This document shows positions 2,256 through 22,616 of a stretch of 22,780 nt of DNA, in pieces. The translations under genes were made by a program, and so were the position numbers. The notes under the pieces are model-generated. The model saw only the letters and a program-made list of their open reading frames with translations, made no database searches and had not been told where the DNA came from. Source of the DNA: a virus; the IMG/VR virus record IMGVR_UViG_3300044675_000029, positions 1 to 22,780 of that record. One strand, given 5' to 3'. Numbering within the stretch: position 1 is the first letter of the stretch; each line of letters starts with the position of its first letter.

Positions 2256-3511
2256 TCGAGATACCGTACTCACCTAGAGAGCCGCAGCTAGAGATACACA
2301 AGGCGATGGATAACAGCCGCTTTGTGGTGGTTGTAGCGCATCGTAGGATGGGTAAGACAGTATCGGCTATCAATCAGCTAATTAAGTCTGCTATCGAGTG
2401 CGATAGAGAGCGTCCAAGGTTTGCATATATTGCACCTACATACAGCCAGGCTAAGCGGGTGGCGTGGGATTACTTGTTGCATTACACAAGACCACTAGGC
2501 GCAGAGGCTAACATTGCCGAGATGCGTGTAGACTTTTGGGACAGGCGCATACAGTTATACGGGTCTGATAACCCTGATAGCTTACGGGGACAGTATTTTG
2601 ATGGCGTGATCTTAGATGAGATTGCAGACCAAAACCCTAAGATATGGAATGAGATTGTTCGCCCTGCCCTAGCGGATCGTGCTCCCCAAAGCTGGGCAAT
2701 GTTTATCGGCACACCTAAAGGTCAGAACCACTTTAAGGACTTGCGGGATAGGGCAGAGGTAGAGCCTAACTGGAAGATGCTTGAGTTTAAGGCGAGTCAG
2801 ACCAAACTTGTACTTGAGTCTGAGCTAGAAGCCGCCAAGCGTGAGATGGGCGAGGATAAGTACAACCAAGAGTTTGAATGTAGTTTCTCAGCAAGTGTAG
2901 AGGGAAGCTACTACGGTCAAATCTTGAATGGCTTAGAATCCGAGGGTAGATACCACAAGATAGAGCGTGATGACCTTTGCAAGACATTTGTTGCGTGGGA
3001 CTTGGGCATGGGTGACAGTACATCTATCTGGGTCGCTCAGTTGGCTAATAACGAAGTAAGGCTCATGGATTACATAGAGAATCATGGGCAAGGTTTAGAT
3101 TGGTACGTTCGGGAGTTGACTAACCGAGGATGGCACAAAGCACCTCAGTTATTGCCGCACGATGTACAGGTTAGAGAGCTAGGCACAGGTAAGAGCCGTT
3201 TAGAGGTTCTACAAGAGGCAGGACTTGACTGTACGGTAGTGGGTAGGCTAAGCGTAGATGATGGCATACAAGCCGTTAGAAGGCTGCTGCCGAGGTGTTA
3301 TTTCAATGTGCCACAGGTTAAGCAAGGATTGGATTGTTTGCGTAACTATAGGCGAGAGTTTGACGAAAAGAGACAAGTGTTTTTCGACAAGCCTTTGCAC
3401 GATTGGTCGAGCCACGGTTCAGATGCTTTCCGCTATCTTGCGGTGGGTATGGACGAACGAGGCTCAGGATGGGGCAAGCCGTTACTAGTTAATACTAAGT
3501 GGGTGGTCTAA
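2243..3511 (+). CDS. terL: Terminase large subunit (ATPase-nuclease packaging motor)
   Basis: 422 residues, normal for the family. The ATPase half shows a Walker A variant AHRRMGKT (32-39), Walker B VILDE (122-126) with the catalytic Glu126, and a coupling motif GTPKG (156-160). The RNase H-like nuclease half shows three acidic positions typical of the family: Asp253 in VAWDLG, Asp307 in LPHDV, and Asp394 in HGSDAFRY. The protein drives ATP-dependent DNA translocation through the portal and cuts the concatemer. No good Shine-Dalgarno is seen; the start lies 13 bases inside the upstream gene, so coupled translation is likely. All key residues appear intact. Confidence is very high. Confidence 0.97.
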   Translation: MAKVIEIPYSPREPQLEIHKAMDNSRFVVVVAHRRMGKTVSAINQLIKSAIECDRERPRFAYIAPTYSQAKRVAWDYLLHYTRPLGAEANIAEMRVDFWDRRIQLYGSDNPDSLRGQYFDGVILDEIADQNPKIWNEIVRPALADRAPQSWAMFIGTPKGQNHFKDLRDRAEVEPNWKMLEFKASQTKLVLESELEAAKREMGEDKYNQEFECSFSASVEGSYYGQILNGLESEGRYHKIERDDLCKTFVAWDLGMGDSTSIWVAQLANNEVRLMDYIENHGQGLDWYVRELTNRGWHKAPQLLPHDVQVRELGTGKSRLEVLQEAGLDCTVVGRLSVDDGIQAVRRLLPRCYFNVPQVKQGLDCLRNYRREFDEKRQVFFDKPLHDWSSHGSDAFRYLAVGMDERGSGWGKPLLVNTKWVV

Positions 3512-3696
3512 TGTTTGTGGAACGCCGAGGCAATCCGGTAACTCGTGAAGAGTACGATAATTTATTAAGGCGTGTTCAAGCGCTTGAGGAAATGTATGGA
3601 CGATGGGAAACTGAAGTCGATTCTGGAAAACGAAATCGACAACGCAATCGGGTATCTGGACACAGAGACAACGGAAGCGAGAACCAAAGCCCTTGA
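3511..3696 (+). CDS. Small ORF bridging terL and portal, overlapping the portal start
   Basis: A 61-residue frame starting at TAATG on the terL stop. The first 30 residues (ERRGNPVTREEYDNLLRRVQ and the following ALEEMYGRW) look like a genuine charged helix or coiled coil. The last 30 are Arg/Asn/Gly/Ser-rich and run out of frame through the portal start, so they may be unconstrained read-through. It fills the 84 bases between terL and the portal ATG and overlaps the portal by 101 bases. Translating this frame would bring ribosomes to the portal Shine-Dalgarno, so a coupling role is possible. I know no function. Confidence 0.55.
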   Translation: MFVERRGNPVTREEYDNLLRRVQALEEMYGRWETEVDSGKRNRQRNRVSGHRDNGSENQSP

Positions 3697-5647
3697 ATAC
3701 TACCTGCGTCAACCTTATGGTAACGAGGTAGAAGGTCGCAGTCAGATCGTAACGGGTGAGGTTGCAGAGGCTATTGATGGCGCTCTGCCGCAACTCGTGC
3801 GTGTCTTTACTCAATCGGACGATATCGTTCGCTTTGAGCCGAAAGGACCAGGCGATGAGGAAGGCGCTAAACAAGCTACGGACTACTGTAATTGGGTGTT
3901 CTATACGCAGAATCCAGGCTTCACCATCCTGCATAACTGGTTTAAAGACGCTCTCTTGCAAAAGAATGGCGTGGTCAAGTGCTATTGGGACGTTAAAGAA
4001 GACGTAACTAAAGAGGAATACCGTGGGCTGACAGACGAGGAGTTGATGCTCCTAATGTCGGACGGTAGCCGTGAGGTTGTAGCTCAGGACACCACAATAG
4101 TAGAAGAGATGGGCATGGATGGACAGCCTATCGTTATGCAAACAAATGATGTAATTGTCGCAAAACGTACACAACATGGCGCAGTCAAGGTAGAGAATGT
4201 GCCGCCTGAAGAGTTCTTAATCAGCAAGCGTGCAAGATCAATTGCTGACAGTCCGTTTGTTGCACATCGTAAGCTGTTGCCACGTTCAGACCTTATCGCA
4301 ATGGGTTTCGACCCTGAGATTGTGGAAAACTTACCGTCTTATAACGACCTGAGTTTCACAGACGAGCGATTGGCACGATACAGCCGAGGTGAGCAGCCGG
4401 ACGAAGAGGCATCACTTGACCATAGTATGCAAGAGATTGAGGTGTACGAAGCCTATCTTATGACAGACTATGACGGTGACGGTATCGCTGAGTTGCGTCA
4501 GATATTCTACGCAGGTTCAGACATCCTGAGCAACGTAGCAACAGATTACAACCCGTTCCACTCGCTCTGCCCTATCCCGATTCCGCATAAGTTCTTTGGT
4601 GAATCGTTAGCAGACCGCAGTATGGACATTCAGTTGATTAAGTCTACTGTTGTCCGTCAGATGCTAGATAACCTTTACCTGTCTAACAACGCCCGAGTCG
4701 GTGCTGTAGAGGGTCAGGTTAACTTGGATGACTTGCTGACCGTTACGCCTGGTGGCGTGGTTCGCATGAAGTCTCCAAACGCAGTCGTACCCATGCAAGT
4801 GCCAAGCGTTATCGCCCAAGCGTTCCCAATGTTGCAATACTTGGATGACGCACAAGCTAAGCGCACAGGCGTATCGGATATGCAGCAAGGGTTAAACCCC
4901 GATGTGTTGCAGAACGTAACGGCTGCGGCTGTTGCTGCGTCTACCGCTGCGGCAGGTGGCAAGCTAGAGCTAGTGGCTCGTATCTTTGCCGAGACAGGCG
5001 TTAAAACCCTGTTCCAAGGCATCTTACAGCTACTTTGTAAGTATCAGGACAAGCCTACTGTTATGCGTTTGCGTGGCAAGTATGTGCCTGTAGACCCTCG
5101 TGAGTGGTCGAATCAGTACGATATAGATATTTCCGTAGGTTTGGGGACAGGCTCGAAAGCTGAGCAGATGACTATGTTGCAGATGGTTCTTGCTAAACAA
5201 GAGGCAATCCTGCAACAGTTCGGTCCTAACAACCCATTGGTATCTGTCGGACAGTATCGTGGCACGCTAGGTCGGTTTATCGAGGCAGCAGGGTTTACAG
5301 ACAGCGCAGAGTTCTTTAAGGAGATTACTCCTGAGATTGAGGCGCAACTTGCACAACCTAAGCAACCACAGGCTGACCCGACTACTCAAGCCCTGATTCA
5401 GCAATCACAAGCACAGATTCAGATTGCCCAACAGAAAGCACAGGCAGATGTACAGGCAGCACAACAGAAGGCTATGGCTGACATTCAGTTACAGCGTGAG
5501 AAAGCAGCCGCAGAGATACAGTTAATGCGGGAAAAGACAGAGGCACAGATGGCGCTTAAGGCTCGTGAGCTAGAGGCTGAGATTCAGCTAAAAGCCGCAG
5601 AGTTAAGTGCTGGCATTGTCACTAGCGCAAACATTCGCAGCGTATAA
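3596..5647 (+). CDS. P22-type portal protein
   Basis: 683 residues from the ATG at 3596. GAGGA at 3586-3590 lies five bases before it, so I prefer this start to the in-frame GTG at 3572. The opening (MDDGKLKSILENEIDNAIG, then LEYYLRQPYGNEVEGRSQIV) and DLLTVTPGGVVR, YLDDAQAKRTGVS and MQQGLNPDVLQ farther on are typical of P22-like portals. Portals form the dodecameric ring at one capsid vertex that docks terminase, conducts DNA and holds the tail. From about residue 580 the protein is a long Gln/Ala/Lys-rich helix (AQIQIAQQKAQADVQAAQQK and on), matching the coiled-coil barrel of long portals. It directly follows terL in standard order. The call is strong. Confidence 0.95.
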   Translation: MDDGKLKSILENEIDNAIGYLDTETTEARTKALEYYLRQPYGNEVEGRSQIVTGEVAEAIDGALPQLVRVFTQSDDIVRFEPKGPGDEEGAKQATDYCNWVFYTQNPGFTILHNWFKDALLQKNGVVKCYWDVKEDVTKEEYRGLTDEELMLLMSDGSREVVAQDTTIVEEMGMDGQPIVMQTNDVIVAKRTQHGAVKVENVPPEEFLISKRARSIADSPFVAHRKLLPRSDLIAMGFDPEIVENLPSYNDLSFTDERLARYSRGEQPDEEASLDHSMQEIEVYEAYLMTDYDGDGIAELRQIFYAGSDILSNVATDYNPFHSLCPIPIPHKFFGESLADRSMDIQLIKSTVVRQMLDNLYLSNNARVGAVEGQVNLDDLLTVTPGGVVRMKSPNAVVPMQVPSVIAQAFPMLQYLDDAQAKRTGVSDMQQGLNPDVLQNVTAAAVAASTAAAGGKLELVARIFAETGVKTLFQGILQLLCKYQDKPTVMRLRGKYVPVDPREWSNQYDIDISVGLGTGSKAEQMTMLQMVLAKQEAILQQFGPNNPLVSVGQYRGTLGRFIEAAGFTDSAEFFKEITPEIEAQLAQPKQPQADPTTQALIQQSQAQIQIAQQKAQADVQAAQQKAMADIQLQREKAAAEIQLMREKTEAQMALKARELEAEIQLKAAELSAGIVTSANIRSV

Positions 5648-5650
5648 GGA

Positions 5651-6097
5651 ATGAAGCCATCCCTAAAGGTTGAGCATATTGAGGACATAGTGGACGAGTT
5701 ATTGCCACTAGCTATTAAGCACCATGCGGAAGTAAATGCTTTCCCTGATACCGAGCTAAACATAGATTGGCGTAGGTACTCAGTTGCAAAACACTCTTAC
5801 AGGCTAATTACTTGCCGAGTTGATGGCAAACTTGTCGGATGGGTTGGGTTCTTTATTGCTGACCACATCCGGCACAATGGCTACAGGATAGCAAAAGAGG
5901 ATTGGTATTACGTTGTTCCTGAGTACAGGGGTAACGGCATTGGCAAGGGAATGTTTAGATACGCAGAGAATGTATTGCGTAATGCCGATGTTAAACGGGT
6001 GATGATTAGCTGCAAAGTAGATCACGACCACACGGGCTTAATAGAGTCTTTAGGCTACATGAATTACGAAAAGAATTTCACTAAGGTGATTGCATGA
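5651..6097 (+). CDS. GNAT-family N-acetyltransferase
   Basis: 148 residues, the usual size of a single GNAT domain. The acetyl-CoA pyrophosphate loop is visible as YRGNGIGKG (92-100) after the strand DWYYVVPEY, matching R/Q-x-x-G-x-G/A. The later stretch VKRVMISCKVDHDHTGLIESLGYMNYEKNFTK matches the GNAT C-terminal motif with the LGY turn. These enzymes move an acetyl group from acetyl-CoA to an amine; the substrate here is unknown. It lies between portal and the next head-region gene and overlaps the latter by four bases, so it is expressed with virion genes. AGGA abuts the ATG with no spacer, so initiation may depend on coupling to portal. Similar GNATs in this position are common in aquatic phages. 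Confidence 0.9.
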   Translation: MKPSLKVEHIEDIVDELLPLAIKHHAEVNAFPDTELNIDWRRYSVAKHSYRLITCRVDGKLVGWVGFFIADHIRHNGYRIAKEDWYYVVPEYRGNGIGKGMFRYAENVLRNADVKRVMISCKVDHDHTGLIESLGYMNYEKNFTKVIA

Positions 6098-7482
6098 GAT
6101 ACAAACACGATAGTATGTTGCCGCTTGGCGCATTTAGACAGCGTGGTAGCGTAGGCAATCGTTCTATGCGTTTGCATGGTGGCGGATACGAGGCAACCCC
6201 TGAAGATTGGCGGTTGATGGAGATTTACTACGCCGCAAGGGATGCAGGGCTTAGCCAAAAAGAAGCAGAGAAAGTACAAATGCAAGCCGCAATGGACGCT
6301 ACTTACGGTGCTCCACAGGTATCTGTAGACACAGCCGGACTAACAGGCGCAGCGCCTAATAGCCAAGGCACGCCTACGGTTTATTACGATGCGGGTGGGA
6401 ATGTAGCGGGTGTGCTATCGCAAAATGGCGTGGTAACACCTGCCTCTATGAATACCATCCTGCAACCAGGACAGACAGCTACAGCGTCCACTCCTGTGCA
6501 GATGGTAAACGAGGAAGGATTAAGGCTATATTTGCGTGATGCAAACGACCCTACATCTGTTACGACAACTATTACGGGTATTCCAGCCATTGCCGGAACG
6601 TTAGGCGAGTCTGCTTACCGCCCTGTTGAGCAGAAAGGAGGTATCTTTGGTACGATTGGCAGTGACTTTGCTGGCATGGCTAAAGACCCTGCCTTTTGGA
6701 AGTTTCTAGCATCTGCTGCCGCTATTACAGGTGGTGGATTAGCGCTTAATAGTGCTTTCGGTGCGGGTGGACTCGGTGCTGCTAGTGGTGCTACGGCTTT
6801 CCCTGTTGCAGACCTTGGATTGTTAGGCGCTACTGAGCTTGGTGCTGCCGGAACTACTGGCGGGGTTGGTGCTATTGGCGCTGGCGGTATGAGCGCAGCA
6901 GAAGCACTTACTGCCGCTGCAAACGCAGGTGGCTTAGGTGCTGAGTTTGGAGTGCAAGGCGCTCTTGGAAGTCTAGGAGCTGCTGGCGCAGGTGGCATGA
7001 GTGCCGCAGAAGCGCTTGCATTAGCCTCAGAAGGCGGTCTAGGCGCTGAGTTTGGCGTACAGGGTGCATTAGGTGGTACTCCTGGCTTATGGGAGTCTAT
7101 TGTTGCGGCATTACCTGCGGGCGCTGCTGATTCTCTTCTTAAGGGCGGATTAACTTTAGGTGGATTGGCTGCTGCACAAGCACTAGCCCCTAAGCAGGGT
7201 GGCGGTGGTGGCACAAGCGGCACTACCAACCTTAGCGCAGATCAGTTAAAGGCAATCGTATCTCAAATGCCTAGCGCAATGGGTAATTACTTGTCTATGG
7301 CGGGTAATCCCTACGGCTACGGTGGAGGCACGATTGATAGTGCTAATGCAAACCTAGCTAACCTGTTCCCAGGCTTTAGCTTGCCGACCGCAGGACCGTA
7401 CTTTGGTGCGGGTAGGTTTGGAGACGCATACGCACCACAAGCATTACCTACAGCACCAATATCTCCTACAGGGTTGGTATGA
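6094..7482 (+). CDS. Gly/Ala-rich putative virion protein with internal repeat
   Basis: 462 residues; no known domain recognised. The N-terminal 60 residues are charged and helical (EDWRLMEIYYAARDAGLSQK, then EAEKVQMQAA). A hydrophobic segment begins near residue 205 (DPAFWKFLASAAAITGGGLAL), followed by roughly 170 residues very rich in Gly and Ala. Two copies of a 36-residue unit starting GAGGMSAAEAL and containing LGAEFGVQGALG lie at residues 262-297 and 298-328. The C-terminus has Gly/Tyr/Pro-rich turns. Position between portal and scaffold, and the amphipathic helix plus Gly/Ala-rich composition, suit an internal or head-associated virion protein, perhaps membrane-active at ejection; this is inference. 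It starts at ATGA with the GNAT gene and ends ATGA with the next. A long reverse-strand frame here is a composition shadow. Confidence 0.8.
   Translation: MRYKHDSMLPLGAFRQRGSVGNRSMRLHGGGYEATPEDWRLMEIYYAARDAGLSQKEAEKVQMQAAMDATYGAPQVSVDTAGLTGAAPNSQGTPTVYYDAGGNVAGVLSQNGVVTPASMNTILQPGQTATASTPVQMVNEEGLRLYLRDANDPTSVTTTITGIPAIAGTLGESAYRPVEQKGGIFGTIGSDFAGMAKDPAFWKFLASAAAITGGGLALNSAFGAGGLGAASGATAFPVADLGLLGATELGAAGTTGGVGAIGAGGMSAAEALTAAANAGGLGAEFGVQGALGSLGAAGAGGMSAAEALALASEGGLGAEFGVQGALGGTPGLWESIVAALPAGAADSLLKGGLTLGGLAAAQALAPKQGGGGGTSGTTNLSADQLKAIVSQMPSAMGNYLSMAGNPYGYGGGTIDSANANLANLFPGFSLPTAGPYFGAGRFGDAYAPQALPTAPISPTGLV
6877..7077 (+). repeat. Tandem 108-base coding repeat (36-residue unit)
   Basis: Two adjacent units begin at 6877 and 6985, 108 bases apart, each encoding GAGGMSAAEAL and then LGAEFGVQGALG. 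Synonymous codon differences between the copies are frequent, so the duplication is not recent and the protein sequence looks conserved. The second copy is shorter by one residue before LGAEFG. Confidence 0.85.
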
Positions 7483-7709
7483 ACAAAGCAGAGCGTGCAG
7501 CAAGCCTTTTGAGAGACGAGTTCTTTGTAGAAGAGATTGAAAGGCTTAAACAGATGTACGTCACACAGATTGTTAACTCAAACGCAGAGGACATAGACGG
7601 TCGGGAACAAGCCTACCGGAATTACTCCACGATTGAGCAGATTATTTCTCACTTTCAATCTATTGCGGATGACGCAAAGATTAACGAGAAACGATGGAAG
7701 ATATTTTAG
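7479..7709 (+). CDS. Small helical protein of unknown function
   Basis: 76 residues, almost entirely charged helix: MNKAERAASLLRDEFFVEEI, then a second helix around YRNYSTIEQIISHFQSI. No catalytic motif or Cys pair. The RAxxLLxDEFF opening and the later REQAYRNY resemble small conserved proteins found next to portal or scaffold genes in podovirus-like phages, for which I know no assigned function. Start overlaps the previous stop by four bases (ATGA). It is the last gene before a 62-base gap that carries two hairpins and precedes the scaffold gene. Likely a small head-assembly factor by position only. Confidence 0.75.
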   Translation: MNKAERAASLLRDEFFVEEIERLKQMYVTQIVNSNAEDIDGREQAYRNYSTIEQIISHFQSIADDAKINEKRWKIF

Positions 7710-7714
7710 GAATA

Positions 7715-7754
7715 TGCGCCAAATGGTGCAAAACTGCGCTAGACAGTATCTAGC
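7715..7754 (+). promoter_or_regulatory. Tandem hairpins upstream of the scaffold gene
   Basis: Two inverted repeats lie in the 62-base gap. The first pairs TGCGCC (7715-7720) with GGTGCA (7725-7730), six pairs with one G-T, loop of four. The second pairs GCTAGA (7738-7743) with TCTAGC (7749-7754), six perfect pairs, loop of five. No T-run follows, so a classical intrinsic terminator is unlikely. The scaffold Shine-Dalgarno AGGG (7761-7764) begins seven bases after the second stem. An mRNA processing or stability element is possible; function not shown. Confidence 0.45.
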
Positions 7755-7771
7755 AACATTAGGGTAATCAA

Positions 7772-8740
7772 ATGAGCGAAAACATGACTCCCGCAGAGGG
7801 AAATGGGACGCTTTCGGTGGATCAAGCCGCCGGAGCATTTTTAGGGCTAATGGGTGGTGAGGACTCGCAAGAGCAACCAGATACCGCACCTGAATCCGAA
7901 GAGATAACTCAGGAAGCACAGTCAGACGAGGAGCAATCCGAATCAGATGGTGAGCAAGTTGAAGACCAAGAGCAAGTAGAAGAGCAACCTCGCTACAAGG
8001 TGAAAGCCTCGGGTGAAGAAATAGAGGTCACGCTCGATGACTTAATCAAGGGTTATCAACGAGAGGCAGACTACACTAAGAAAACCCAAACACTCGCAGA
8101 ACAGCGCAAGCAGGTCGAATCTGAGCGCCAAGTAATCGAGCAAGCAAAGACAGAGAGAGATCAGTACCAAGCTAGGCTTGCACTAATTGAGACCGCATTA
8201 AAGTCTCGTGAGCCGCAGGAAAACCTAGAAGCTCTTAAGGAAACCGACCCGATTGGGTTTGCAGTAAAGGTAGCCGAACAAACTCAGCGAGAGAGGCAGC
8301 TACAAGCTATTCAGCTAGAGCGAGCACGCATTGCCCAACAGCAACAAGCGGAGCAGACTCAAAACTTAAATAGCCATCTAGCCGTGGAAGCGCATAAGTT
8401 AGCAGAGGCAATACCTGAATATGCAGACGAGCAGAAGTCCGTACAGGTCAAAAAAGACATACGAGACTATGCTAGAAAGATTGGATGGTCGGACGAAGAG
8501 TTGGCTAGTGTGTATGACTCTCGTGCCGTTCTGACTTTGTATCGTGCGATGCAATACGAGAAGCTAATGGGCAACAAGGCAAACGTAACCAAAAAGGTTA
8601 ACGAAGCCCCTAAGATGCTCAAGGCTGGCGTATCCCGTCAAACGGATGCAAATGCAGATCAGACTAAGAAAGCCCAAAACCAGCTCAAGCGAACCGGAAA
8701 AGTCCGAGACGCAGCGAGCGTATTTGAACGATTCATTTAA
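7772..8740 (+). CDS. Capsid scaffolding protein
   Basis: 322 residues. Residues 30-72 are extremely acidic and Glu/Gln/Ser-rich. A short folded motif YKVKASGEEIEVTLDDLIKG is followed by YQREADYTKKTQTLAEQRK, a pattern found in many phage scaffolds placed before the capsid gene. From about 100 to 220 it is a Gln/Glu/Arg-rich coiled coil, then a basic C-terminal region (KKAQNQLKRTGKVRDA) of the kind that contacts coat protein. Scaffolds direct procapsid assembly and leave before or during packaging. It sits directly upstream of the major capsid gene with a nine-base gap. Start supported by AGGG at 7761-7764, seven bases from the ATG. Confidence is high from position plus composition. Confidence 0.9.
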   Translation: MSENMTPAEGNGTLSVDQAAGAFLGLMGGEDSQEQPDTAPESEEITQEAQSDEEQSESDGEQVEDQEQVEEQPRYKVKASGEEIEVTLDDLIKGYQREADYTKKTQTLAEQRKQVESERQVIEQAKTERDQYQARLALIETALKSREPQENLEALKETDPIGFAVKVAEQTQRERQLQAIQLERARIAQQQQAEQTQNLNSHLAVEAHKLAEAIPEYADEQKSVQVKKDIRDYARKIGWSDEELASVYDSRAVLTLYRAMQYEKLMGNKANVTKKVNEAPKMLKAGVSRQTDANADQTKKAQNQLKRTGKVRDAASVFERFI

Positions 8741-8749
8741 GGAAATAAA

Positions 8750-9694
8750 ATGCCTACATTTACCGCACATAGTGCTATTGGTCAGCGTGAAGACCTAACC
8801 GATGTTATCTATAACATCTCCCCAACAGAAACCCCATTGCTGAACACTTTGGCTCGTGCTAAAGCTACAGCCGTGTACCACGAGTGGCAGACAGACTCGT
8901 TGGCAGCCGCTACTACTGCTAACGCAGCAGTTGAAGGTGCTGACGCTACATCGGCAACACTCAGCCCAACAACCCGCCTTGGTAACTACACACAGATCGT
9001 TCAAAAGACGATTCAGGTGTCCGGCACTCTTGAGACTGTTAACAAAGCAGGTCGCAAGTCGGAAAAGGCTTACCAATTGGCTCGTGCATCAAGCGAGTTG
9101 AAGCGTGACATCGAGACCATTCTTTGTGCTAACCAAGCTCGTAGCGCTGGCAGCAGCTCGACAGCCCGCACAATGGGTTCTATGTTGTCATGGCTCACGA
9201 CTAACGTAGACAAAGCATCTAACGGTGCAAACCCTACGACTATTGGTTCGACAACCCGCTCAGACGGTACTGCCCGCACGTTTACTGAGACTCTTCTCAA
9301 GAACGTAGTGGCAAGCGTTTACGGTTCTGGTGGCGCTCCTAAAGTATTGATGGTTGGTGCAGCAGGTAAGCAGAAAGTGTCGAGCTTTGCAGGTATTGCT
9401 GCACAGCGCTACATGGCTCCAGCCGATGCTCCTACCACCATTATTGGTGCGGCTGACGTGTACCTGTCGGACTTCGGTTCGATTTCTGTTGTCCCTAACC
9501 GTTTCATGCGTGCTCGTGATGCGTTTATTCTTGATCCAGAATACGCAGCAGTTGCTTACCTGCGCCCATTCGCAACAAACGAATTGGCTAAGGCTGGCGA
9601 TAGCGACAAAACTCAGATTCTTGCTGAGTTGACGCTTGAAATGCGTAATGAAGCAGCCCATGGCTTGGTCGCTGACCTAGATATGTCGCTGTAG
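8750..9694 (+). CDS. Major capsid protein, SU10/DUF5309 type (HK97 fold)
   Basis: 314 residues. The opening (TAHSAIGQREDLTDVIYNIS, then PTETPLLNTLARAKA) is the hallmark of the DUF5309/SU10-like major capsid family, followed by HEWQTDSL, the segment NYTQIVQKTIQVSGT, and ELKRDIETILCANQAR. Near the C-terminus AFILDPEYAAVAYLRPF is also typical. Subunits build the icosahedral shell; no protease cleavage site or separate maturation protease is visible here. The best ribosome site in the region, AAGGAA at 8739-8744, lies five bases before the ATG, fitting heavy expression. Codon use shows many C-ending choices compared with neighbours, also consistent with high expression. A strong hairpin follows the stop. 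Confidence 0.96.
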   Translation: MPTFTAHSAIGQREDLTDVIYNISPTETPLLNTLARAKATAVYHEWQTDSLAAATTANAAVEGADATSATLSPTTRLGNYTQIVQKTIQVSGTLETVNKAGRKSEKAYQLARASSELKRDIETILCANQARSAGSSSTARTMGSMLSWLTTNVDKASNGANPTTIGSTTRSDGTARTFTETLLKNVVASVYGSGGAPKVLMVGAAGKQKVSSFAGIAAQRYMAPADAPTTIIGAADVYLSDFGSISVVPNRFMRARDAFILDPEYAAVAYLRPFATNELAKAGDSDKTQILAELTLEMRNEAAHGLVADLDMSL

Positions 9695-9733
9695 TCTCAA
9701 CTTGAGATAGGGGTAGGGCTTTGGCTCTACCCC
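9695..9733 (+). terminator. Tandem hairpins after the major capsid gene; candidate terminator or processing site
   Basis: Immediately after the capsid stop, TCTCA (9695-9699) can pair with TGAGA (9703-9707). It is followed by a strong stem: 9710-9719 pairs with 9724-9733 over ten positions (one G-T), with a four-base TTTG loop and four G-C pairs at the base. No T-run follows (the next bases are GCATTAGG), and the next Shine-Dalgarno begins a few bases later, so full termination is doubtful. A partial terminator or RNA-stabilising 3' end for the capsid transcript is more likely. Confidence 0.5.
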
Positions 9734-9744
9734 GCATTAGGATT

Positions 9745-10065
9745 ATGAAAAAACTATTTAATGTTGACACCGAAGTAGGTAGACATACGGTAGCCCACGA
9801 TGACGGAAATGGTGGACTAATCCTCGAAACTAAACAAGATATTTCAGAAATACTAGAAGCAAACAAGCGGGACTACAACAGCATTACTTCTGTAGACCGT
9901 TGGGGTGATTTAACGCACATAGCTCGGATACCTTATACGGTCATAGATGACCTGAATACAAAGGGTATTATGAGAGGGTTCGCAGTTGTTGATGAAAGCG
10001 CATTTGCTGCTTTTCTCAATAATCCTGAAAACCGATTCTTGCGTGTTCGCCCAGGGAATGTATGA
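9745..10065 (+). CDS. Small conserved post-capsid protein
   Basis: 106 residues from the ATG at 9745; TAGGA lies just upstream. An in-frame TTG at 9721 would start inside the hairpin loop and is less likely. Features include ETKQDISEILEANKRDYN, WGDLTHIARIPYTVIDDLN and a C-terminal LNNPENRFLRVRPGNV. The order DV/DI-xx-ILExNK ... ARIP ... LNxPxNxFxRxxPG is one I associate with a small family found right after the capsid gene in many podovirus-like phages; its function is not known to me. It may be a capsid-associated or head-completion protein. Its stop overlaps the next ATG by four bases. The gene is firm; the role is not. Confidence 0.8.
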   Translation: MKKLFNVDTEVGRHTVAHDDGNGGLILETKQDISEILEANKRDYNSITSVDRWGDLTHIARIPYTVIDDLNTKGIMRGFAVVDESAFAAFLNNPENRFLRVRPGNV

Positions 10066-10742
10066 AGATAGCTATATGCGTACCATGCCGTGATAGTGTT
10101 ATGTCGGGCTTTGCCTTTGACCTAGCTAACTTGGTTGGTTATGTATCAAGAAACACAGATCACAAGATAACGCTTTTGCAGATGCCAGGCACGCTGATAT
10201 TCACCCAAAGGGAGAAGTTAGCGGAGGAAGCCTTAGCAGACGGTGCGGAGGCAATCTTGTGGATAGACTCAGATATGCGGTTTCCGGCAAATACGTTAGA
10301 AGTAATGTTAAGCCGGAAAGTACCTATATTGGGAGTTAACGCTACAACCCGTAGAGAGCCTATTATCCCTACTGCGGGACAGTTAGAAATGAAGGACGGG
10401 ATGGCAACATTCCGCAAGGTAGAAAGTAGAGGCAAGCAAGGGATAGAGCAGGTAACAGCCGTAGGATTCGGGGTTACGCTTGTTAAGTCTCAAGTATTTA
10501 GGGAAATCCCTAAGCCTTGGTTTAACATTATCTGGAAGGATGATGGAGACATTATTGGCGAAGATGTACATTTCTGCGTCAAGGCGCAAGATTGCGGGAT
10601 AGAAACTTATGTCGATCACGACCTAAGCCCGTTAATCAAGCATATAGGCACAAAAGAATACGGATGGGATGACGTAAAACATGGCAATAACAACATACAG
10701 CGACCTGCAAACAACAATCGCAAGCTATCTCGCAAGAAGTGA
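10062..10742 (+). CDS. GT-A (family 2-like) glycosyltransferase
   Basis: 226 residues. The start MKIAICVPCRDSV is the first strand of a GT-A fold, LLQMPGTLIFTQREKLAEEA follows, and AILWIDSDMRFP carries the DxD motif (Asp69-Ser-Asp71) that binds metal and nucleotide sugar. A later GEDVHFCVKAQDCG near residue 165 matches the acidic ED motif of family 2 enzymes. It would transfer a sugar to an unknown acceptor: virion protein, host surface or DNA base. It lies between small head genes, so virion protein is a reasonable guess. The last 20 residues (NNN-rich, then RKLSRKK) overlap the next gene by 62 bases and may be a late extension past an ancestral stop. Confidence 0.85.
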   Translation: MKIAICVPCRDSVMSGFAFDLANLVGYVSRNTDHKITLLQMPGTLIFTQREKLAEEALADGAEAILWIDSDMRFPANTLEVMLSRKVPILGVNATTRREPIIPTAGQLEMKDGMATFRKVESRGKQGIEQVTAVGFGVTLVKSQVFREIPKPWFNIIWKDDGDIIGEDVHFCVKAQDCGIETYVDHDLSPLIKHIGTKEYGWDDVKHGNNNIQRPANNNRKLSRKK

Positions 10743-19371: not shown

Positions 19372-20259
19372 ATGCCACGCACAAAAATCTCTGAGTTCAG
19401 CGCAACACCAGGCGATAACACCGACATTGACGGTATCGACATTGCAGAAGGCTGCGCTCCATCCGGTATTAACAATGCTATCCGTGAGCTTATGGCTCAA
19501 CTTAAGGATATGCAGACAGGCTCATCGGGCGATACCTTTACGCTTACTACCGTTAACTCTACTACTGTAGACACCACTAACCTAGAGGTTACTAACCTTA
19601 AGGCTAAGGACGGTACGGCTGCGGGTTCTATTGCTAACTCTACGGGTGTTGTAACCCTAGCGTCTACTGTCCTGACCACAACGGATATTAACGGCGGTAC
19701 GGTAGACGGTGCGGCTATTGGTGCATCCTCTGCCTCTACGGGTGCGTTTACTACCGTATCGGCAAGCGGAGTTATTACATCTACCCTAGCTACGGGTAAT
19801 CCCCCATTAGTTATCGCTTCTACTACAAAAGTAGCAAACCTGAACGTAGATCAGCTAGACGGTGCTGATTGGGCTGCTCCTGCGGCTATAGGATCGACAA
19901 CTCCTGCGGCGGGTACATTTACTACTATCACGGGTAAAAAAGGCGTAGGCACGCCTGTAGCGCTTACTAGCACCTCTGCGTCTATTGCTGTCAACATGAA
20001 CGATAGCAACTTTACGCACACGTTTACAGAAAATACTACACTTGCTAATCCTACTAACCTAACTGCCGGACAGTCAGGGGTTATCGTGTTTACGCAGCAC
20101 GCTAGTTCGCCTAAGACGTTAGCATTTGGCTCGTATTGGGACTTCCCTAGCGGCACAGTACCTACGGTTACGGCAAGCAACAGCGCAGTAGATGTACTTG
20201 CATACTATGTTAATTCGTCAACTTCCATCACAGCTAAACTGCTTGGGGATGTCAAATGA
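19372..20259 (+). CDS. Tail fibre protein with virion-attachment N-terminus
   Basis: 295 residues. The N-terminus TKISEFSATPGDNTDIDGID followed by APSGINNAIRELMAQLKDMQ is a common adapter segment of podovirus fibres that attaches them to the tail. The middle is a Thr/Val/Asn-rich beta region. Fibre-type repeats appear: TTDINGGTVDGAAIGASSAS followed by TGAFTTV, and later IGSTTPAAGTFTTI. The C-terminal third (DSNFTHTFTENTTLANPTNL and on) resembles the beta domain closing short fibres. It would form a trimer linking tail to receptor-binding modules. AAGGAC precedes the ATG; stop overlaps the next ATG by four bases. Strong as a fibre; receptor unknown. Confidence 0.88.
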   Translation: MPRTKISEFSATPGDNTDIDGIDIAEGCAPSGINNAIRELMAQLKDMQTGSSGDTFTLTTVNSTTVDTTNLEVTNLKAKDGTAAGSIANSTGVVTLASTVLTTTDINGGTVDGAAIGASSASTGAFTTVSASGVITSTLATGNPPLVIASTTKVANLNVDQLDGADWAAPAAIGSTTPAAGTFTTITGKKGVGTPVALTSTSASIAVNMNDSNFTHTFTENTTLANPTNLTAGQSGVIVFTQHASSPKTLAFGSYWDFPSGTVPTVTASNSAVDVLAYYVNSSTSITAKLLGDVK

Positions 20260-22616
20260 TTGGTAACAATCTTTTATTGGGTAGCGGAGACGAAGGCTAC
20301 AACCTCACACGCTCGCTGCGGTTTAGAAGCTCGGCTAGTGCGTATTTGAATCGGACTCCTGCAAGTGCAGGGAATCAAAAGACTTGGACGTACTCAGATT
20401 GGATTAAACGTGGGGCATTAGGAACAGATCAAGTAATACTCTCTGCCGGTCAAGGTGCGGGAACACTTTATTTTTATTTGCGTTTTTTAGCGTCAGATGC
20501 GTTAGATATTTTTACTTATGACTCTAACACCGCAACATTTATTTGGCGTTTAACTACGACCCAAGTGTTTCGTGATCCGTCTGCTTGGTATCACCTTGTT
20601 ATTTCAACTGACACCACTCAAGCAACGGCAGCAAACAGGGTCAAGATATACGTCAACGGCACTCAAGTTACAGCGTTTACTACCGCAAGTTATCCGTCGT
20701 TAAATTACGACACAAGATTTAACGCAAACATTGCTCACTATATATCTTCGTACATTGGGTCGGCTAATTTTGCTGACTGTTACCAAACAGAAGTAAATTC
20801 TATCGACGGTCAGGCGCTCGCCCCCTCATCATTTGGCTCAACCAACGCTCTCACAGGCGTATGGCAACCCGCACGATATGTTGGAACATACGGCACAAAC
20901 GGTTTCTATTTGCCTTTCACGGATAATTCCGGTGCAACAGCCACAACCATTGGCAAAGACTTCAGCGGTAATAGTAACAACTGGACACCAAACAACATCA
21001 GCGTAACTGCTGGTGTGACGTATGACTCAATGACCGATGTGCCAACGCTGACAAGTGCTACGGCGGCTAACTACTGTGTTGGAAACCCGTTATCAATCGG
21101 ACCTAATGCTTCGTTGTCTGATGGAAACTTGACAGGAACATTAACCGGATCTGGTGGTTGGGCTGGCAGCATTTGCGGTCTAACTTCAGGCAAGTGGTAT
21201 TACGAGGCAACTAATACAGCAAGCGCAGGCAATAGCAGATGGGTTGGTTTTTTAAGTGATGTGTACACAAAAAATGACAACGCTTGGTCTTTCAGTACAC
21301 AGACTGCTTTATATGCTAACGATGCACGCAACGGAAACAACGCATCATACGGTGCAACATGGACAACCAATGATGTAATTGGTGTTGCGTTAGACCTATC
21401 AACAAGTAGCGGTTCAGTTACGTTTTACAAGAATGGCGTGTCTCAAGGCGTGATGTTTAGTTCTCTTACATCGTCTGCCGTATGGCGACCACTAATTTCC
21501 GGTGGTGGCACAGGCACAACAATGGCTATGAATTTCGGTCAACGCCCATTTGCCTACACACCCCCATCAGGCTTTGTAGCCCTGAACACGTTTAACTTGC
21601 CGACAAGCACTATCGTCAAAGGCAATACGGTGATGGATGCTACGTTGTATACGGGTAATGGTTCAACGCAGACCGTTACTAATGCTGCGGGGTTTAAACC
21701 TGATTTGGTGTGGGATAAACGTAGAGATGCGGCTGGCAACCACGGATTATTTGACTCAGTAAGAGGTGGTGGCAATTGGATAAGTTCTAACGCTACTAAT
21801 GCTGAAACAGCGGGTGTAAATGGTGTAACCGCTTTTAACTCAAACGGATTTTCTGTTGGCAGTCATCCTGATTACAATACTAACGCAGCTACTCAAGTCG
21901 CTTGGCAATGGCAAGCAGGACAAGGCTCAACATCATCCAACACAAGCGGCACAATCACAAGCACGGTCAGCGTTAATGCTAGTGCTGGGTTTAGTATTTG
22001 TACTCTAACAACTCCCGCATCCGGTATTTGCACTTTTGGTCATGGTCTTGGCGTTGCCCCATCGTTAGTGCTTACAAAATACCGATCTTCAACAAGCGAT
22101 TGGCTTTCTTATCATTCTAGCGTTGGAAATACGGCTTATTTGCTTTTGAATGGAACAAATGCGGCTACAACAAATGCAAACACTTGGAACAATACAAGCC
22201 CTACATCGTCTGTTGTAACTTTAGGTTCAGACTTTTCAGGCACTCGATCTATTGTCGCCTACTGCTGGACACCCATAGCAGGATACTCAGCGTTTGGCGG
22301 ATACACGGGTAACGGTAGCACAAACGGTGCATTTATCTATACAGGTTTTAGACCAAGATTTGTGTTAGTTAAACAAACTGACGCGGCGGGAAACTGGTTG
22401 ATTTGGGATACAGCTCGTTCGACATACAATCAAATGCAAGATTATTTAATTCCAAACAGTTCATCTCAAGAATTAAATAATGTGCTTGTTTCTATTGATG
22501 TGTTATCCAATGGATTTAAATGCCGTACCGCAGACGATGATATTAACGGAAACGGAAACTCCTACATCTACATGGCATTTGCCGAAAACCCAACGAAATT
22601 TGCACTCGCACGCTGA
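20256..22616 (+). CDS. Multidomain fibre: LamG-like lectin, SPRY domain, three repeated C-terminal domains
   Basis: 786 residues. Residues about 18-205 show a concanavalin/LamG-type pattern (SLRFRSSASAYLNRTP, then WYHLVISTDTTQ and VKIYVNGTQV). Residues about 298-443 show a SPRY/B30.2 pattern (GKWYYEATN, RWVGFLSD, then GVALDLSTSSGSVTFYKNGV and MAMNFGQRPF). From about 461 onward there are three related units: one near 461 with YTGNGSTQTVTNAAGFKPDL, one near 572 with FGHGLGVAPSLVLTKYRSS, and one near 681 with YTGNGSTNGAFIYTGFRPRF, which match in my memory a repeated fibre domain of unknown function (DUF7483-like). All are extracellular binding modules, so this is probably the receptor-recognising fibre. 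Coupled to the preceding fibre by a four-base overlap, and to the next gene by AAGGAA. Confidence 0.85.
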   Translation: MIGNNLLLGSGDEGYNLTRSLRFRSSASAYLNRTPASAGNQKTWTYSDWIKRGALGTDQVILSAGQGAGTLYFYLRFLASDALDIFTYDSNTATFIWRLTTTQVFRDPSAWYHLVISTDTTQATAANRVKIYVNGTQVTAFTTASYPSLNYDTRFNANIAHYISSYIGSANFADCYQTEVNSIDGQALAPSSFGSTNALTGVWQPARYVGTYGTNGFYLPFTDNSGATATTIGKDFSGNSNNWTPNNISVTAGVTYDSMTDVPTLTSATAANYCVGNPLSIGPNASLSDGNLTGTLTGSGGWAGSICGLTSGKWYYEATNTASAGNSRWVGFLSDVYTKNDNAWSFSTQTALYANDARNGNNASYGATWTTNDVIGVALDLSTSSGSVTFYKNGVSQGVMFSSLTSSAVWRPLISGGGTGTTMAMNFGQRPFAYTPPSGFVALNTFNLPTSTIVKGNTVMDATLYTGNGSTQTVTNAAGFKPDLVWDKRRDAAGNHGLFDSVRGGGNWISSNATNAETAGVNGVTAFNSNGFSVGSHPDYNTNAATQVAWQWQAGQGSTSSNTSGTITSTVSVNASAGFSICTLTTPASGICTFGHGLGVAPSLVLTKYRSSTSDWLSYHSSVGNTAYLLLNGTNAATTNANTWNNTSPTSSVVTLGSDFSGTRSIVAYCWTPIAGYSAFGGYTGNGSTNGAFIYTGFRPRFVLVKQTDAAGNWLIWDTARSTYNQMQDYLIPNSSSQELNNVLVSIDVLSNGFKCRTADDDINGNGNSYIYMAFAENPTKFALAR

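Follow-up and report, generated by a model that had tools for sequence, protein, structure and literature searches.

The gene 32 leaders of phages T4, T2 and RB69 contain an H-type pseudoknot of ~28 nt, which is located 67 nt 5' of the start codon and is followed by UUAA repeats, as described in the available parts of the published accounts (PMC3014915, PMC535899). A 2010 review, in the portion available, regards this T4-type knot as perhaps the sole viral pseudoknot employed in translational autoregulation (PMC3014915). Highly structured leaders are also described for the toxin mRNAs tisB and timP; according to the available part of that report, the timP knot lies between two stem-loops, raises initiation even when the Shine-Dalgarno (SD) site is open, and supports the mRNA level (PMC11228461). 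The preQ1-I and SAM-V riboswitches, as far as the available sources describe them, are small H-type pseudoknots acting at translation. Intrinsic terminators at the ends of capsid genes are known in other phages, and T-phi of phage T7 is one that follows the major capsid gene.

The window analyzed here is an IMG/VR virus record of 22,780 bases. Its head genes match SU10-type models for the portal and major capsid proteins (Table 1) and for the adaptor (PF24175). Family searches gave no PHROG or Pfam match for the 76-aa ORF that precedes the RNA module; a ...WKIF/L motif at the C-terminus of this ORF (window 7680–7709) recurs across several clades. Elsewhere in the window, the ORF at 875–1939 weakly matches ART-PolyVal (ADP-ribosyltransferase of polyvalent proteins), with E 1.5e-4, under the curated cut-off; the gene at 10062–10742, two genes past the capsid gene, possibly encodes a glycosyltransferase-like protein (Anp1 under cut-off; phrog_1574), and the large product of 20256–22616, in which SPRY and DUF7483 domains were recognized, is likely to be an adhesin or tail fibre.

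A sequence-only reading had noted tandem hairpins on both sides of the scaffold and capsid genes, in two spacers that it regarded as the only ones so large among the head genes, and had proposed that such bracketing would allow the scaffold-capsid mRNA to be cut out or protected, giving a high dose of both proteins without separate promoters. The two spacers are indeed long (62 nt before the scaffold gene and 50 nt after the capsid gene) and the remaining head-gene spacers are ≤9 nt, except that the terminase-portal spacer is also large (60–84 nt, depending on the choice of portal start) and is partly covered by a small, doubtful ORF that overlaps it. A promoter search of the upstream spacer detected no sigma-70-like site on the + strand.

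Both members of the hairpin pair before the scaffold gene are real as stems of six pairs, but the second of them (7738–7754) is not an independent hairpin. It corresponds to one stem, S2, of a predicted compact H-type pseudoknot of 21 nt, in which the 3' strand of the other stem, S1, lies within the S2 loop. The predicted knot is small, with 3 bp in S1 and 2 nt in L3. When the window is considered without its relatives, the upstream pair looks ordinary, since hairpin A and the S2 stem rank only 33 and 85 among the 247 hairpins of a window scan; the pair has z = -2.16, with 9 of 200 shuffles equally stable. Single-sequence folding would thus dismiss elements of this kind.

Table 1 Features of the scaffold-capsid region of the window.
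Feature	Position	Strand	Remarks
Portal gene	3572 or 3596–5647		PF23899; two possible starts
GNAT acetyltransferase gene	5651–6097		PF00583, E 3.1e-14; directly 3' of portal gene, in head operon
ORF	6094–7482		Between GNAT gene and small ORF
Small ORF, 76 aa	7479–7709	+	Stop TAG 7707–7709, 5' of RNA module; stop within hairpin A in two other clades
Hairpin A, UGCGCC-AAAU-GGUGCA	7715–7730	+	6 pairs; rank 33/247 in window scan
S1 5' strand, CUG	7734–7736	+	Partner 7744–7746; covaries in relatives
Loop L1, 1 nt	7737	+	
S2 5' strand, GCUAGA	7738–7743	+	
S1 3' strand, CAG	7744–7746	+	Inside loop of the hairpin seen by the sequence-only reading
Loop L3, UA	7747–7748	+	
S2 3' strand, UCUAGC	7749–7754	+	
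SD-like UAGGGU of scaffold gene	7760–7765	+	Unpaired in predicted minimum-energy fold of 7710–7771
Head scaffolding protein gene	7772–8740	+	phrog_3927, E 9.9e-53
Major capsid protein gene, SU10 type	8750–9694	+	PF17236, E 4.6e-101
Small hairpin, 5 pairs	9695–9707	+	Rank 150 of 247 when scanned as 9694–9708
Ten-pair hairpin	9710–9733	+	9 Watson-Crick pairs and 1 G-U; no U-tract
phrog_3982 gene, unknown function	9745–10065	+	ATG 9745, 11 nt past ten-pair hairpin

Conservation was assessed among relatives collected by five viral-contig scans with capsid queries, together with 14 named phage records. These gave 358 capsid-gene sequences (window included), many of which overlap as copies of the same contig. 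After removal of duplicates, 147 scaffold leaders of 55 nt and 191 N-free post-capsid stretches of 60 nt remained. A scan with fixed geometry and place detects the knot in 110 of the 147 leaders vs. 96 of 2,940 shuffles; the strength of this result, and of the parsimony counts made with it, is partly built in, because the scan sets its register by pairing, which is not the case for the MAFFT alignments described below. L092, although included in the 110, is regarded as a false positive. Seven further leaders have a weak knot by eye (L009, L085, L240, L254, L264, L271 and L282) and 30 have none by scan or eye, indicating that the knot is not essential across the family. The leader of Methylophilales phage Venkman, which is cultured on strain H5P1, is interpreted as having a weak form of the knot. 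Copies of the knot at other genes were looked for and rejected: at a knot score of ≥19, 109/147 scaffold leaders are retained vs. 63/995 other start regions and 81/1,470 shuffles, and several of the top-scoring control start regions are post-capsid hairpins.

Twelve S1 pair types were observed in which both sides have changed together (CCG/CGG, CUG/CAG, GGG/CCC, CCU/AGG, CAG/CUG, CGG/CCG, UGG/CCA, GGC/GCC, GGU/ACC, GCG/CGC, CGU/ACG and ACG/CGU); a thirteenth, AAG/CUU, is that of L092 and probably arose by chance. When S1 strands are exchanged among leaders (39 distinct stem sets), pairing results in just 412 of 1,482 combinations. Three groups of leaders (I–III) were aligned with MAFFT without the use of structure (A1–A3), and these alignments represent knot-bearing leaders since the 30 knot-less ones were excluded by eye. 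For group I (A1, 46 sequences), S1 is 90.6% and S2 73.3% paired, the latter figure being lowered by several rows out of register in S2, and covariation is 0.415 vs. 0.150 shuffled. For group II (A2, 40 sequences, 38 distinct), S1 is 97.4% and all cells 98.0% paired, with 0.284 vs. 0.116 shuffled. Group III (A3) was reduced from 31 to 21 rows of like geometry prior to counting; here S1 is 90.5% and all cells 95.2% paired, with 0.413 vs. 0.117 shuffled. A further alignment (A4), in which MAFFT misplaced L275 and L299, was discarded, and its remaining 18 rows constitute A5.

Among 18 distinct 21-nt cores, 100% of S1 and 98.8% of all pairs are formed, and the covariation score is 0.829 vs. 0.238 when shuffled and ≤0.138 when slid, with the middle pair of S1 represented by five pair types. 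In each of these four sets (groups I–III and the 18 cores), all 500 shuffles fell short of the observed covariation, and slid controls of the whole structure fall far below the true register. S1 and S2 are interleaved and compensatory changes occur in both, across the three alignments and the 18 cores, as expected for an H-type pseudoknot. The cores contain 14 G-U cells, their sole two unpaired cells are U-U in the outer S2 pair, and A-C cells are absent, which favors RNA of the + strand, i.e. the mRNA strand, as the molecule that folds. A search of known RNA families yielded 0 Rfam matches at the gathering threshold and chance-level hits only (E 2.3 and 3.9).

The position of the knot follows the scaffold gene. 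From the end of S2 to the scaffold ATG the distance is 17.4 ± 1.8 nt (range 11–22; 106 leaders), whereas from the upstream stop to S1 it is 11.5 ± 7.0 nt (range 0–24) in the same leaders, and an SD-like word starts 4–8 nt past S2 in 99 of the 110 knot leaders. Where the spacer could be measured, it is 39–65 nt long in 106 of the 107 clear-knot leaders, the exception (-11) being the probably fortuitous L092, and ≤33 nt long in 28 of the 29 knot-less leaders. These lengths suggest that the scaffold gene either sits close behind its neighbor or is given a knotted leader, and on a capsid tree with 145 leaves at least eight changes in knot presence are required. A switch in which S1b masks the SD was rejected: an S1b complement occurs in the SD region in 0/39 leaders (1.5 expected), so the knot appears unlike an SD-masking switch. 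Leaders of the L084-like clade could form a CCUA...UAGG pairing, but L230 and L253 do not conserve it. Separately, in the knot-less leaders L051 and L062 a CCUUAUAAUUAAGG inverted repeat would mask the scaffold SD, representing a different structure in the same place.

Since the knot stays at a near-constant distance from the ATG and leaves the SD free while its own sequence varies, its effect is expected at scaffold initiation. We regard it as moderately probable that the leader pseudoknot acts in cis on translation initiation of the scaffold gene, and that a separate capsid hairpin thins out and/or protects the transcript. In this leader, a hairpin that in relatives often encloses the upstream stop codon is followed directly by the knot, ending ~17 nt 5' of the scaffold start. 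The likeliest way of action is that the knot would form a rigid 5' edge aiding 30S/S1 loading on the open SD site and shielding that site from the upstream gene, so that a multi-gene mRNA would yield large amounts of scaffold protein. A positive or insulating action is preferred to feedback, since the leaders show no conserved motif that a protein could read, although the fixed knot-ATG spacing could also be compatible with repression.

Alternatively, the leader may serve to insulate the scaffold gene, with the stop-codon hairpin and the knot blocking the sliding of terminating ribosomes and thereby freeing the scaffold gene from translational coupling. Immediately 5' of the knot, 81 of the 110 leaders carry a hairpin vs. 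152/1,100 shuffles, and this hairpin shows a compensatory change in L005. In 57 of these 81, all from clades other than the window's nearest, the upstream stop codon lies within the 5' arm and the opposite arm tracks the stop type (UAG-CUA, UAA-UUA, UGA-UCA), which speaks for this explanation, and the mostly short spacers of knot-less leaders are typical of coupled genes. In the window, by contrast, the upstream stop sits 5 nt 5' of hairpin A, and in the L014-like clade hairpin A is missing although the knot is present. As a rival to the main reading, this explanation is rather unlikely.

Feedback by a protein appears less probable still. The knot could serve as a translational operator, bound by excess scaffold (or capsid) protein, which would stop scaffold synthesis and set the scaffold:capsid ratio. 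The scaffolding protein of phage P22 limits its own synthesis post-transcriptionally, and a knot tied to the scaffold start codon would be suitably placed for such control. In the available parts of the gene 32 reports, T4 gp32 similarly shuts off its own mRNA via a pseudoknot 5' of the initiation codon (PMC3014915, PMC535899). However, loops and stems vary freely in the 18 cores, except at the G-C junction pair and at a U that follows S1, so that only the shape would be readable, and no UUAA-type repeats occur between the knot and the ATG (window 7755–7771). If the operator explanation were true, these phages would be the second kind of virus after the T4 type to employ an mRNA pseudoknot in translational autoregulation, and scaffold autoregulation would gain a concrete RNA target.

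On the other side of the module, the ten-pair stem after the capsid gene is the strongest simple hairpin of the window scan (rank 1/247), and the downstream region has z = -4.43, with 0 of 200 shuffles equally stable. The pair of hairpins previously seen here thus holds for its second member; the small first member is weak, its pattern being limited to close relatives (8 of the 206 post-capsid sequences) by a count with one typed pattern that may miss variants. In contrast, 181 of the 191 distinct sequences have a hairpin of ≤-10 kcal/mol after the capsid stop, vs. 40 of 191 shuffles; at ≤-14 kcal/mol the counts are 160 vs. 7. The stem sequences are diverse, with 57 distinct hairpins in the window-like and L082-like groups. 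At least 5 T within the next 8 nt are found in 56/59 L083-like, 15/35 L082-like, 7/32 L084-like and 6/51 window-like sequences, counts that are lower bounds, since in some cases (L108, L113) the T run is counted into the stem. The window's hairpin is stable and G+C-rich as in an intrinsic terminator, but its tail GCATTAGG has 2 T of 8, short of a U-tract, and a terminator scan listed no terminator-like site there.

The best reading is that the post-capsid hairpin is of an ordinary, common type, forming a full terminator with U-tract in one clade and not in the window. Since the U-tract is missing, the window's hairpin may instead be a U-less block that protects the 3' end, may cause pausing or may damp initiation at the gene that follows, whereas those with a U-tract would terminate transcription. 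In L034, L043 and L075, the 3' arm of the post-capsid hairpin holds the SD of the next gene (GGGAGGAUUUAUG) and may repress that gene. In Sinorhizobium phage phiM5 (L088), the post-capsid spacer contains a tRNA-Met gene (3170–3244) by annotation, confirmed by ARAGORN.

Conserved structures therefore do flank the scaffold and capsid genes on both sides, and a pseudoknot can also support the mRNA level, as the available part of the timP report describes (PMC11228461). Still, joint action of knot and capsid hairpin, protecting a scaffold-capsid mRNA of ~2 kb or marking it for cutting, is improbable. A strong post-capsid hairpin is present at 100 of 107 readable clear-knot loci (absent from 7), at 7/7 weak-knot loci and at 28 of 30 readable knot-less loci; being kept with and without the knot, it fits an independent element and is not an obligate partner. 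Moreover, the knot tracks the start codon and not the upstream gene, and this fixed spacing, against a variable distance to the stop, leads us to prefer control of translation initiation to generic mRNA bracketing. Stems of 5–10 pairs also look short for RNase III. Thus, the earlier observation was partly right and its interpretation is partly supported, with the upstream half more interesting than had been thought. Finally, although a pseudoknot just 3' of a stop codon resembles viral readthrough signals, readthrough or frameshifting that joins the upstream ORF to the scaffold was rejected as highly improbable, since spacer lengths modulo 3 take all values (21, 47 and 46 leaders), showing no constant frame relation, and the window's spacer contains an in-frame stop.

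Taken together, a covarying knot at near-fixed distance from the start codon precedes the scaffold genes of many environmental phages related to the SU10/LUZ24 capsid type. The near-fixed spacing and the matched-pair changes point to a hidden control of scaffold amount, and how scaffold dosage is set without a dedicated promoter can be tested directly by fusing a short leader to a reporter. In literature searches on scaffold autoregulation, phage pseudoknots and capsid terminators, with subscription papers mostly outside reach, none of the titles and abstracts found describes the element; this is weak evidence of its novelty.

Compared with known systems, the scaffold leader resembles that of gene 32, as far as the available parts of the reports describe it: both have an H-type pseudoknot in a phage mRNA leader, 5' of the SD of a gene for a many-copy protein, and in both structure counts more than sequence (PMC3014915, PMC535899). 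The scaffold knot differs in being 21 nt long and ending 17 nt upstream of the start, in having no UUAA/UUAAA repeats, and in belonging to a different gene of unrelated phages, with no repressor known. The proposed role resembles by analogy that of tisB and timP, in which, in the available part of the report, a 5'-leader pseudoknot aids initiation (PMC11228461); unlike them, the scaffold element is a knot of only 21 nt that lies locally next to an open SD within an operon of a phage, and in the predicted fold this SD is not masked in a stable stem. It shares its fold with the preQ1-I and SAM-V riboswitches, but no conserved ligand loop core is seen in it and it has no Rfam match. The post-capsid hairpin, in turn, resembles the terminator-like hairpins in the same position in Pseudomonas phages NV1 and PaP4 in being G+C-rich and just 3' of the capsid stop, and in the window it departs from them in its T-poor tail.
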